Below, one piece after another: positions 12,466-17,372 of a stretch of DNA of 64,000 nt. Origin of the DNA: an uncultured Williamsia sp. (GTDB lineage Bacteria > Actinomycetota > Actinomycetes > Mycobacteriales > Mycobacteriaceae). The translations under genes and the position numbers were made by a program. Where the stretch lies: assembly GCF_947494875.1 (NCBI RefSeq), contig NZ_CANLWM010000009.1, positions 124,001 through 188,000 of the forward strand. The letters are read 5' to 3'. Within the stretch, counting starts at the first letter, position 1. Each line of letters starts with the position of its first letter. The notes beneath the pieces were generated by a model. It saw only the letters and a list, made by a program, of their open reading frames with translations, was not told the DNA's origin and searched no databases.

Positions 12466-14018
12466 GCGCGGGCCTCCGGGGTGGCACCGGCGGCGATCGC
12501 GGCGGCGGCGAAGGCGTCGCCGCGCGCCCCGTACCCGGGGAACATGTCGAGAGATGCGGCCGCGGGTGCCAGCAGGACGGCGTCGACGGATTCGGGTGCC
12601 GATCCGACCAGGGAGTGGGCGGCGACGACGGCCGCGTCCATCACCTGCTCGGCGGGGGTCCGGGACTCGTCGGCCGGGAGTGCGGACGCCGCGACGGCGG
12701 CCCTCTCGGCGCGGTCGACGGCAGTGTCGTCGGCTCCCGAGACGACCGGCATGGCGTTCACCCGGCCATCGTCTCCTGTGAACAGTGTGACTGTTGGGAT
12801 TGCAGGGGCGTGTCGCGCGATCGCGCCGGCGATCACTTCCCGGTCGACCCCGAGCAGCACCGCACCGGCGACGCGATCGGCGACCGCGACGATCAGGTCG
12901 TCGACCGCCGCGCCCTTCAGCTGACCGCCGCCGACCAGGACCACCCGTCGCCGCGCGGCGATCGAGGCCTGGGCGGCGTGCGGGTTGGTGGCCTTGGAGT
13001 CGTCGACGGCGGCGACGTCACCCCACCGGGCGACGATCTCGCCGCGATGACGGCCCGGGATGAACCCCGACAATCCGGCGGCGACCGTGTCGGGGTCGAT
13101 CCCGATCCCGAGACACAGCGCGGCGGCCGCGGTCGCGTCGGCCATGCCGGGCGGGCCGGGGGGACGCAGCCCGTCGACGCCGACGACCCGCCGCGGGGCA
13201 CGGTCGGGACCGAAGGCGCGGTCGACGATGTGGCCGTCGAGAACACCCACCTCCCCGTCGGCGGGGGGACCCAGGCGGGTGCGGACGGTGCGCGCGTCGG
13301 GCGCCGCCCCCGACATCGACCCGGCGACCGGGTCGTCGCCGCCGACCACGGCGAGCGGACCCCGCAGGGCGCCGGCCTTGGCGGCGACGTAGGCGTCCAT
13401 CGACCCGTGCCAGTCGAGGTGGTCCTCGGCGATGTTGAGCACCACGCCGGCCGTCGGGATCACCGACGGCGCCCAGAACAGCTGGAACGACGACAGTTCG
13501 GCGGCGAGCACGTCGACCCGTGGCTCGGCGACGAGCGCGTCGAGCACGGGCAGGCCGATGTTCCCGCAGGCGGCGACGGTGCGGGGCGAGCGCTCGACGA
13601 TCGCCTCGACCATCGAGGTGGTGGTCGTCTTGCCGTTGGTACCGGTCACGACGATCCAGGTCCGCGCCGGGCCGAGCAGCCCGGAGGTGTCCACGTGCCA
13701 GGCGAGTTCCACCTCACCCCACACCGGCACCCCGGACGCGCGTGCCGCGGTGACGACGGCCGACTCCGGCCGGAACCCGGGCGACACGATGAGCAGGTCG
13801 ACGTCGTCGGCGAGTGCGCCGTCGCGGACCACGGCCGACGTGGGGACCACCTCCAGGCCGGGGAGGGCGGCACCGGCGCGGTCGTCGGCGACGGCGACCC
13901 GTGCGCCGCGATCGGACAGGAACCGTGCCGCCGACGCGCCCGCCGTCCCGGCGCCCGCGACGACCACATGCAGGGCGGCGATGTCGGTGAGCAGAGCCGC
14001 GTGCCGCACGTCAGCCAC
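12462..14018 (-). CDS. murD: UDP-N-acetylmuramoyl-L-alanine--D-glutamate ligase
   Basis: A 518-residue Mur ligase adding D-Glu to UDP-MurNAc-L-Ala. The N-terminal Rossmann strand is [18 protein letters not shown] (about 17-34), the P-loop GTNGKTT (126-132), then [21 protein letters not shown] and [11 protein letters not shown], the carbamylated-Lys and C-domain motifs. Length is slightly above the usual 440-490, mostly in an Ala-rich C-terminal part. It overlaps mraY by 8 nt and ftsW by 4 nt. Confidence 0.97.
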
Positions 14019-15108
14019 CGTTGGTGGTGAGGAACTCGCTGTAGAACAGGGACAGTCCGAGGGCGCAGGCGATGGCGGTCAGCAGCCAGAACCGGATGAT
14101 CACGGTCGTCTCGGCCCAACCACCGAGCTCGAAGTGGTGGTGGAACGGCGCCATCCGGAACACCCGCCGGCCGGTGGTGCGAAAGAACGCGATCTGCATG
14201 ACCACGGAGACGATCTCGGCGACGAACAGCGCGCCGAGCACGACGGCCAGCAGCTCGGTGCGTGTCGTGATCGACAGGCCCGCGAGCATGCCGCCCAGCG
14301 CCAGCGAGCCGGTGTCCCCCATGAAGATCTTCGCCGGCGCGGCGTTCCACCACAGGAACCCCAGGCAGGCGCCGCCCCCGGCCACCGCGATCAGCGCGAG
14401 GTCGAGGGGGTCGCGGACGTCATAGCAGCCGGAACTGACGTCGGCGCCGAGCTTCGGCCCACCCGAGCAGGCGTTGCGGTACTGCCAGAACGTCACGAGC
14501 ACGTAGGAACCCAGGACCATCGCCATGGATCCGGCGGCGAGCCCGTCGAGCCCGTCGGTGAAGTTCACGGCGTTCGACCAGGCGGCGACGACGAGCCAGC
14601 AGAAGATGACGAACGCGACCGAGCCGAGGGTGACGGCGTTGATGTCGCGGACATACGACAGCTTCACCGAGGCGGGTGCGTCGCCGTTGCCGTTGCGGAA
14701 CTGCAGCGCCAGCACGCCGAAGAGCAGTGCCGCGATGAGCTGGCCCACCGATTTCGCGGTCTTGTTCAGGCCCAGGTTGCGCTGCTTGCGGATCTTGATG
14801 AAGTCGTCGAGGAAGCCGACGCCGCCGAGGACGGTCGCGAGTGCGAGGACGAGCATGCCCGACGCGCTGGGGCCCTGACCGCCGTTGATCAGTCCGGTGA
14901 GGTGTGCGGCCCAGTAACCGGCCCAGAGGGCCGCGATGATCGCGACACCACCCATGGACGGGGTGCCGCGCTTGGTCTGGTGGCTCTGCGGTCCCTCGAC
15001 GCGGATCTCCTGGCCGAAGCCCTGCCTCGAGAAGACCTTGATCAGGACCGGGGTCAGCAGGATCGACACCGCGAGTGCGACCGCACCGGCCACCAGGATC
15101 TGCGTCAC
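14011..15108 (-). CDS. mraY: Phospho-MurNAc-pentapeptide transferase MraY
   Basis: A 365-residue polytopic membrane enzyme (about ten helices) that makes lipid I from UDP-MurNAc-pentapeptide and polyprenyl phosphate. Signatures: [17 protein letters not shown] (about 42-58), FLDDFIKI with the catalytic Asp pair, [24 protein letters not shown] and [13 protein letters not shown]. It starts from a GTG, with a 62-nt gap after the MurF-like stub. Normal length. Confidence 0.98.
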
Positions 15109-15170: not shown

Positions 15171-15653
15171 TCACGGCCGCGCCGTGCACCGTTGGTCATC
15201 CAACAATGTCCGCGCGAGGCGCGACAACTCGGCCCCACCCCCGGCCACCAGCACCACGTCACCGGCGGTGAGTTCGTCGTCCAGGGTCCGCCAGGCCTCG
15301 TCGGCGTCGGCCACCAGGCGCGCCTCGTCGCCCCAGGAACCCTCCATGACCGCGCCCTGGTGCAGCGCCCGCACCCACCGCGACTCGCCCACCGACACCG
15401 TGGTGTCGACGGCGAGGCGCACCGCGCGGCGTCCGACGCGATCGTGGGCGACGGCCCGGTCGGATCCGGTGGCGTCGTCGGACTCCGCCACGTCGAGCTC
15501 GCCCAGCACCGCCCACGTCCGGGCGGGTCCGTCCGGGACGACACGCGCACGCGCGGTGCGGACGAGGTCGGCGAGCCCGTCGGAGACGTCGTCGGGCCCG
15601 GCGGGTACGCCCGTCCGGTCGATCACCCAGACGGCGGTGTCCTCGGCGCTCAT
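15171..15653 (-). CDS. Stand-alone MurF C-terminal domain; ATPase domains absent
   Basis: A 160-residue protein in the murF position between murE and mraY. The ATG overlaps the murE stop as ATGA, exactly as a full murF would. It aligns by eye only with the C-terminal (domain III) part of actinobacterial MurF: TWAVLGELDVAESDD, DRVGRRAVRLAVD, LHQGAVMEGSWGDEA, VADADEAW, GDVVLVAGGGAEL and a tail ending DDQRCTARP. The first roughly 300 residues, including the GTxGKT P-loop, are missing. Conserved residues inside the domain are changed: the expected YNANP-type loop reads TGVPAGP, and the usual KGS/KAS after GDVVLV reads AGG. It cannot be a working ligase by itself. Either it is a relic or it has a new role, and a functional MurF must be encoded elsewhere. 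Confidence 0.8.
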   Translation of the reverse strand: MSAEDTAVWVIDRTGVPAGPDDVSDGLADLVRTARARVVPDGPARTWAVLGELDVAESDDATGSDRAVAHDRVGRRAVRLAVDTTVSVGESRWVRALHQGAVMEGSWGDEARLVADADEAWRTLDDELTAGDVVLVAGGGAELSRLARTLLDDQRCTARP

Positions 15654-17281
15654 GTGTCGTCCTCCTGTGGATCGAGCTCTGCCGCTCGCGCGTCGATGGC
15701 CTCGGCGACGACGGTCCGGTCGTCGAACGGCGTCTTCACCCCCGCCACCTCCTGACCGGTCTCGTGGCCCTTGCCCGCGACGAGCACGACGTCCCCGGTC
15801 CGCGCCCACCGCACGGCATGGGCGATCGCCGCGGCGCGGTCCCCGATCTCGACGACGTCCTGCGCACCCACGGGTCGCTCGTCGGCGTCGACGCCCTCTG
15901 CCCCGGCGCGGACCGCGGCGCGGATCAGGGCCGGGTCCTCGTCGCGAGGGTTGTCGTCGGTGACGACCACGAGATACGCACCTCGCGCGGCGGCCGCACC
16001 CATGAGCGGTCGCTTGCCCATGTCGCGGTTGCCACCGGCACCGACGACCACCGCCAGGCGGCCCGTCGCCTGCCCGCGCAGGGTCGCGATGACCGCGTCG
16101 AGGGCGGCGGGCTTGTGCGCGTAGTCGACGACGGCCAGGAAGTCCTGGCCGCGGTCGACGAGTTCGACACGCCCGGGCACGCGGACCTCGGCGATCCCGC
16201 GGGCGGCGTCGGGCACCGACACCCCTGCGGCGTCGGCGACGGCGAGCGCGGTGAGCGCGTTGGCGACGTTGTAGCGACCCGGCAACGGCACGGACAGGGT
16301 GTGGTTCTCCCCCATCGGCGCGCGCACGGTCACCGTCTGCGACCCGTCGTCGCGCAGGCGGGACGGCCCGGCGAACCAGGCCGCGGCGCTGTGGCGGGTC
16401 GACGTGGTCACCGCGCCACGACCGACCATGGCCGCGAGGCGTTCGCCCCACTCGTCATCGACGCAGATCACCGCGCGCGCAGCGTGTTCCGACGCCCCCG
16501 GCACGGAGTGCTCGGACGGCACGGGCACGAACAGACGCGACTTCGCCTCGAAGTAGTCGAGCATCGTCGGGTGGAAGTCGAGGTGGTCCTGCGACAGGTT
16601 GGTGAACGCGCCGATCGCGAAATGCGCTCCGCGGACACGTCCCAACGCCAACGCGTGGCTGGACACCTCCATGACCACGGTGTCGACGCCCTGCTCCACC
16701 ATCGCGGCGAGCATCGCCTGCAGCGACGGGGCCTCGGGCGTGGTCAGCGAACTGGGTTGCCGCTCACCGGCGATCCGGGTCTCGACGGTGCCGATGAGCC
16801 CGACCCGGTGTCCGGCCGCCATCAGCGCAGACTCGAGCATGTAGCTCGACGTGGTCTTGCCCGAGGTGCCGGTGATGCCGATCAGCCGCAGTCGTCGCGA
16901 CGGGTCCCCGTACACCCGGGCGCTCACCGCACCCAGGACGCTGCGCGGATCGGGGTGCACCAGGACGGCGACGGGTGTCCCCGGCGGCACCGAGGTCTTG
17001 AGCACCGATGCGCCGGCGCTGTCGGTGAGGACGGCCGACGCACCGGCGTCGATCGCGTCGACGGCGAACTGTGCGCCGTGCACCCGTGCCCCGGGCAGCG
17101 CCGCGAACAGGTCACCCGGGGTGACGTCCTGAGCACGCAGGGTGGCGCCGGTGACCGTGCTCGACGTCGTGGCCTCGCCGAGGAGGTCGAGGCGGGCGGA
17201 CACGGCCGTCGCGATCGCCTCGACGGCGACCGGGGTGACCGAGCGTGGTCGCAGCACCGATCGCGATGTCCCCTCGCTCAC
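15650..17281 (-). CDS. murE: UDP-MurNAc-tripeptide synthetase MurE (meso-DAP type)
   Basis: A 543-residue Mur ligase adding the third amino acid. The P-loop is GTSGKTTS (138-145), followed by TTPEAPSLQAML, EVSSHALALGRV, NLSQDHLDFHPTM, VVDYAHKPAALD and DDNPRDEDP. The DNPR motif indicates meso-diaminopimelate as substrate, as expected for Mycobacteriales. The GTG at 17281 is chosen because AGGAGT lies 9 nt upstream; a GTG at 17317 is possible. Its stop overlaps the MurF-like stub by 4 nt. Confidence 0.96.
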   Translation of the reverse strand: MSEGTSRSVLRPRSVTPVAVEAIATAVSARLDLLGEATTSSTVTGATLRAQDVTPGDLFAALPGARVHGAQFAVDAIDAGASAVLTDSAGASVLKTSVPPGTPVAVLVHPDPRSVLGAVSARVYGDPSRRLRLIGITGTSGKTTSSYMLESALMAAGHRVGLIGTVETRIAGERQPSSLTTPEAPSLQAMLAAMVEQGVDTVVMEVSSHALALGRVRGAHFAIGAFTNLSQDHLDFHPTMLDYFEAKSRLFVPVPSEHSVPGASEHAARAVICVDDEWGERLAAMVGRGAVTTSTRHSAAAWFAGPSRLRDDGSQTVTVRAPMGENHTLSVPLPGRYNVANALTALAVADAAGVSVPDAARGIAEVRVPGRVELVDRGQDFLAVVDYAHKPAALDAVIATLRGQATGRLAVVVGAGGNRDMGKRPLMGAAAARGAYLVVVTDDNPRDEDPALIRAAVRAGAEGVDADERPVGAQDVVEIGDRAAAIAHAVRWARTGDVVLVAGKGHETGQEVAGVKTPFDDRTVVAEAIDARAAELDPQEDDT

Positions 17282-17372
17282 CCGATCACCACTCCTGTCG
17301 ACCACACCGTCCCGCACCGGGTGCGGGCTCTCCCGAGCACGTCAGCCTACGCGGGCCGACGCGAGTCACCCG

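Follow-up and report, generated by a model that had tools for sequence, protein, structure and literature searches.

A retained MurF C-terminal domain coupled to murE in Williamsia, Gordonia and relatives, and a probable import of the ddl and murF genes

In a Williamsia-like genome, the gene between murE and mraY encodes the C-terminal domain of MurF alone, and the only full MurF found in that genome is a protein of another type, encoded on another contig. The explanation we favour, with moderate confidence and from sequence comparison, is that a divergent ddl-murF pair was imported, and that the retained C-terminal domain of the native MurF now serves as a non-catalytic adaptor of MurE. Displacement, selection and fusion are each evident in the sequences, and it is from these that we infer the partner and the function of the retained domain. 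Import of murF together with ddl, loss of the native ddl, and confinement of the kept residues to one non-catalytic block all go beyond the original prediction made for this locus.

A MurF C-terminal domain between murE and mraY

The gene, hereafter the stub, was analysed within a 64,000-nucleotide stretch of DNA (the window), in which the following features were located:

15171-15653, minus strand: the stub, a stand-alone MurF C-terminal domain of 160 aa (open reading frame, domain matches and homologues)
15650-15653, minus strand: ATGA, where the end of murE and the beginning of the stub overlap, read in the sequence
15650-17317, minus strand: murE, the upstream coupled gene, fused to the stub in some Gordonia
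14011-15108, minus strand: mraY, the downstream gene
15594-15614, minus strand: TGVPAGP, stub residues 14-20, replacing the YNANP loop (Y, N, N and S of YNANPDS each kept in 0 of 24 stubs)
15321-15365, minus strand: LHQGAVMEGSWGDEA, stub residues 97-111, a retained native motif with residues (named below) that are kept in 24 of 24 stubs
15237-15245, minus strand: AGG, stub residues 137-139, at the KAS site of native MurF (K kept in 0 and S in 1 of 24 stubs)

As the original prediction had stated, the sole gene between murE and mraY corresponds to the last domain of MurF only. The frame read from the window sequence comprises 160 codons and a stop, and matches the murF profile TIGR01143 over positions 325-412 of 418 only (30.3 bits, cut-off 288.6), and, slightly short of the curated cut-off, Pfam Mur_ligase_C (PF02875) over residues 26-139 (E 3.9e-6, 28.1 bits, cut-off 28.4). 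The stub is not a full three-domain protein scoring above the TIGR01143 cut-off: no Mur_ligase_M match was found in it with Pfam, and the ATP-binding GTxGKT domain and the N-terminal domain are missing from the gene, as had also been claimed. A profile search of the PDB with the stub returned weak matches only, the best (E 0.037) being to MurE C-domains. The predicted ATGA coupling to murE is present, and a four-base overlap with the murE stop recurs in 19 of the 20 unfused stubs from named loci, taking as the start of each the start codon closest to that stop.

Named relatives place the window's genus in Williamsia, the stub of W. serinedens being 91% identical to that of the window. Occurrence in sister species, raised in the original prediction, was borne out, in that the stub lies between murE and mraY in 8/8 genomes of the window's genus; the domain stands beside murE and mraY in 26/26 genomes of five other genera. 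It is accordingly found, either as the gene that separates murE from mraY or as part of a murE fusion, in 34/34 sampled genomes of six genera, where matches derived from alignment A1 are true by construction in four genomes because these supplied four of its 12 rows, the gene neighbourhood having been checked separately. Among named loci, 23/23 from Williamsia and Gordonia carry the stub, which in three cases is joined to MurE, and the other 57 have a long MurF frame in that place (Nocardia, Rhodococcus, Prescottella, Tomitella and others; at least two of these loci are cut by a contig end), in a set of 80 that is biased toward stub-like sequences because it holds the best-scoring of 314 loci. 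In a tree of C-domains, all 26 stub rows from the six genera form one group (support 100/99) beside native Mycobacteriales C-domains, and a single origin is therefore the simplest reading, with the caveats that the natives do not form one group and that two long stub branches meet. The tree also establishes the descent of the stub from a Mur ligase C-terminal domain, for which the Pfam score alone is borderline. This agrees with the proposal that the event is old.

Three named species, Gordonia malaquae, G. spumicola and G. liuliyuniae, have the stub domain as an in-frame C-terminal extension of MurE. The same was seen in 6/26 genomes of the other five genera, all within genus g9 (6/14). With G234, which is the G. 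liuliyuniae genome (identical sequence), counted once, the natural MurE-stub protein occurs in eight distinct Gordonia genomes, and EGSWG is present in 8/8. An alignment in which the fusion was set against MurE and the stub as individual rows (A3) misplaced part of each stub row on MurE, and was left unused.

The replacement MurF and its neighbour ddl

The prediction that a catalytic MurF is encoded elsewhere is consistent with a complete gene at G000:C1:172889-174118, on another contig of the window's genome. Its product matches TIGR01143 over positions 1-418 (388.5 bits, cut-off 288.6) and carries three Pfam domains; no other full MurF was found in the genome, and ligase activity is predicted for this one. 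Because this MurF has all domains, we rejected the reading in which a split MurF has its missing domains encoded elsewhere. Each of the eight genomes of the genus has one MurF above the cut-off, outside the dcw cluster, and exactly one MurF match (E 1e-40 or better) was found in each of the 29 genomes behind 30 named loci, comprising 23 of Williamsia and Gordonia and six others with MurF between murE and mraY. Among 201 genomes drawn from the family, a MurF match at that threshold occurs in 199, one each; two full MurFs in one genome were not found among the 201. Separately, Mur-ligase-like frames of 554 and 567 aa occur at G002:C2:457728-459017 (L054, L060) and G006:C1:1549046-1550200 (L055, L061); their similarity to MurF is weak (about 50-60 bits per piece), and the same search returned none in the window's genome.

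The short type of MurF, defined by a match of E 1e-120 or better to that of the window's genome, is present in 34/201 genomes. These are every sampled genome of six of the 31 genera, and the same 34 that carry the stub. It is divergent to ddl in 25/25 Williamsia and Gordonia loci (the 23 named loci, the window's genome and G015), and a divergent ddl-murF pair is also present in 11/12 loci of families f43, f58 and f84, which belong to another class of the same phylum; the other 16 loci of the phylum that were examined have the order murE-murF-mraY. At L199 (G498:C1:79074-83345), the twelfth locus of f43, f58 and f84, there is no ddl-like match in the stretch examined. In a MurF tree of 59 rows, the 25 short MurFs form one group (99/95) beside f58, f84 and f43, apart from native Mycobacteriales; the deep split between imported-type and native proteins has support of 86/98, below the 95 mark, and the placement of L210 (f37), a long branch, is uncertain. 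The Ddl tree (41 rows, one G. jinhuaensis protein having been entered twice) separates 9/9 native Ddl of the family from 21 rows of the stub clade and 11 of f43, f58 and f84, with support of 100/100. The donor class may be Acidimicrobiia, to judge by a single donor-side genome that is putatively that of Ilumatobacter coccineus.

There is one ddl in the window's genome, and likewise in the other seven genomes of the genus. In a native relative, gpsA is followed by ddl, by one more frame, and then by an AIR-synthase-type gene that is probably thiL, judging by gene order. In the window's genome, gpsA and the AIR-synthase-type gene are approximately 700 bases apart, and a native ddl query gave no match in 5.5 kb at this gpsA-thiL site; judging by this comparison, the native ddl is deleted from its old place. 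The trees, together with the loss of ddl at gpsA-thiL, therefore indicate that an imported ddl-murF pair displaced both native genes. One genome of genus g11 has, besides the ddl next to murF, a second Ddl-like gene (G017:C26:617231-618235, 271.6 bits, above the cut-off), which may encode a D-Ala-D-Lac ligase, given that vanHAXRS is reported in Williamsia marianensis (PMC8698665).

Selection and retained residues

Over eight species pairs, dN/dS was 0.10-0.25 for the stub, compared with 0.07-0.21 for murE and 0.00-0.07 for mraY, which indicates purifying selection, a point that the original prediction had left to such an estimate. Between the window and W. serinedens, pN is 0.020 in the middle of the stub and 0.064 and 0.068 at its ends. 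Stub frames are open in all loci examined, and these open frames, the dN/dS values and the conserved block described below led us to reject a pseudogene.

Among the 77 positions at which 90% or more of 18 native C-domains agree, 26 are kept in at least 90% of the 24 stubs, and another 26 are kept in 25% of them or fewer. The predicted alteration of normally invariant loops is apparent at the YNANP and KAS sites listed above, and the E, L and G that follow GEM are likewise lost (kept in 3, 2 and 6 of 24 stubs); a C-domain with conserved YNANP and K-(A/G)-S, as expected of MurF, is thus not what the stubs have. The YNANP loop and KAS residues are catalytic and ligand positions of the MurF C-domain. 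Kept in stubs are HDxxGRxAVRxxV, VGxxR and QGAVMEGSWGxE, and in the last of these Q, G, A, M, E, G, S, W, G and the next E are retained in 24/24. When secondary-structure elements are matched in sequence through an alignment with E. coli MurF, the lost loops would fall on the active face and the kept block away from it.

In the set used for the MurF tree, EGSWG is present in 6/6 native Mycobacteriales MurFs and 6/6 MurFs of f18, a group of the same class as the window's genome and outside its order, and is found in 0/25 replacement MurFs and 0/12 MurFs of f43, f58 and f84. A pattern search of further natives detected EGSW or EGSF in 17/17 longer stretches and 13/20 short ones; the seven short stretches in which it was not found are those of G009, G011 and five members of the order. 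G009 and G011 (L274, L275) are small-genome members of the family, and the motif's binding partner may therefore be missing or changed there. When the PDB was searched with a native MurF, 20 distinct sequences were listed, including MurF structures of several bacteria, and among these listed matches the EGSWG stretch is missing from both chains that were aligned. That EGSWG might dock NamH, and so be special to organisms with NamH, was considered because the NamH homologue of M. tuberculosis, like DdlA, paired with MurF and with no other Mur ligase in a fragment-complementation assay (PMC3605390). The occurrence of the motif in f18 means that it is not specific to the order, and this candidate was dropped.

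Proposed mechanism, alternatives and known systems

The sequences show that the common ancestor of Williamsia, Gordonia and relatives (six GTDB genera sampled) gained a divergent ddl-murF pair from another class of Actinomycetota. The imported genes took over both enzymes; the native ddl was deleted from its old place and the native murF dropped its first two domains, its C-terminal domain staying as a selected gene that overlaps murE. We propose that the stub is now non-catalytic and serves MurE as an accessory subunit, or adaptor. Its HDxxGRxAVR and GAVMEGSWG stretches could then be a retained docking surface, missing from the imported MurF, that once let native MurF hold the cytoplasmic ligases together, or tie them to the division and elongation machinery. 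In part of Gordonia, the subunit would have turned into a domain of MurE itself. As DdlA of M. tuberculosis pairs only with MurF, Ddl and MurF may be exchangeable only as a pair. The same study also reports pairing of Mur ligases with FtsZ, FtsW, FtsQ, Wag31 and the SepF ortholog, and no pairing among the Mur ligases themselves (PMC3605390); contact with MurE is on this account unsupported for a native relative, and is favoured here because of the natural MurE-stub fusions. Also weighing against the proposal are the seven short native stretches in which EGSWG was not found, and the 86/98 support of the deep MurF split. These fusions lend support, short of proof, to the original suggestion of a MurE partner. 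If the whole is correct, then an essential enzyme has been split, with catalysis passing to the imported Ddl-MurF pair and docking remaining on the old C-domain, as a clade-wide and probably important subunit or domain of MurE; this broader statement we put forward only tentatively.

The stub could instead be an adaptor for a foreign enzyme, binding the imported MurF (alone or paired with Ddl) and bringing it to MurE and MraY. The imported MurF lacks EGSWG, which the stub could provide in trans, and short MurF and stub co-occur in 34/34 genomes; however, common descent alone would explain this co-occurrence, and in the fusions seen the stub is joined to MurE and never to MurF, such that we regard this alternative as unlikely. 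Somewhat less likely still is a ligand-sensing regulator that binds UDP-MurNAc-peptide or a nucleotide and tunes MurE. Descent from a substrate-binding ligase domain, and the tie to MurE, would suit such a role, yet the native YNANP loop and KAS residues on which ligand binding might be expected to draw are those that have been lost.

The near-universal overlap of start and stop codons, and the greater variability of the N- and C-terminal thirds of the stub relative to its middle, might also be expected of a decaying relic kept only for translational coupling of murE and mraY. Such a relic is very improbable when dN/dS is like that of murE, when a block of identical residues extends across six genera, and when in-frame fusions retain the motif although coupling is unneeded there; moreover, the native ddl was deleted without leaving a comparable remnant. 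An assembly error in the window, which the original prediction had argued against, has a negligible probability and was rejected, since the same arrangement recurs in every one of the 34 sampled genomes across six genera, and a complete MurF of another type is encoded elsewhere.

Two reports (PMC6420597, PMC3605390) treat as an open question whether the cytoplasmic Mur ligases physically assemble into a complex, and which surfaces would hold it together. Retention of the stub as a putative MurE adaptor would represent a natural domain-deletion experiment, in which one block of the old MurF was kept, tied to MurE, after a foreign MurF took over catalysis. The kept residues are likely to mark a non-catalytic interface, relevant to native MurF too, and if this is true, then MurF may have a hidden non-catalytic role in those Actinomycetes with the EGSWG motif. 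In addition, two successive steps of an essential pathway have here passed from one class of a phylum to another, carried by a single divergent gene pair.

The displacement of native genes by transferred ones is a known kind of event, as is the repurposing of enzyme remnants. In open-licence PMC papers we found no report on the stub, on murF of Gordonia or Williamsia, or on transfer of ddl with murF; as far as this literature search shows, a free-standing, conserved Mur ligase C-domain that is also found as a domain of MurE is a new variant. The nearest likeness is to the C-domain of native Mycobacteriales MurF (PF02875, TIGR01143), with which the stub shares gene place, the HDxxGRxAVR and QGAVMEGSWG block and, probably, fold family, and from which it differs in standing alone or fused to MurE, in having no N-terminal or ATPase domain, and in its loss of YNANP and of the K and S of KAS. 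In the plastid polymerase complex of plants, a MurE-like protein (PDB chain 8w9z_N) resembles the stub as a relative of Mur ligases within a larger assembly, but it retains all domains, is located in plastids, and arose from an unrelated event. Actinobacterial murF-like genes beside vanHAX (PMC8698665) lie away from murE-mraY and near a Ddl-family gene, as here, but go with glycopeptide-resistance genes, whereas the ddl-murF pair described here is the only housekeeping copy, and a Pfam scan of 11 neighbouring frames revealed no van-type gene. Finally, the MurE-MurF fusion of Bordetella pertussis joins MurE to MurF sequence as the eight Gordonia fusions do; the Bordetella protein has both activities (PMC6420597), whereas the Gordonia fusions carry only the C-domain of MurF, and are predicted to be non-catalytic in that part.
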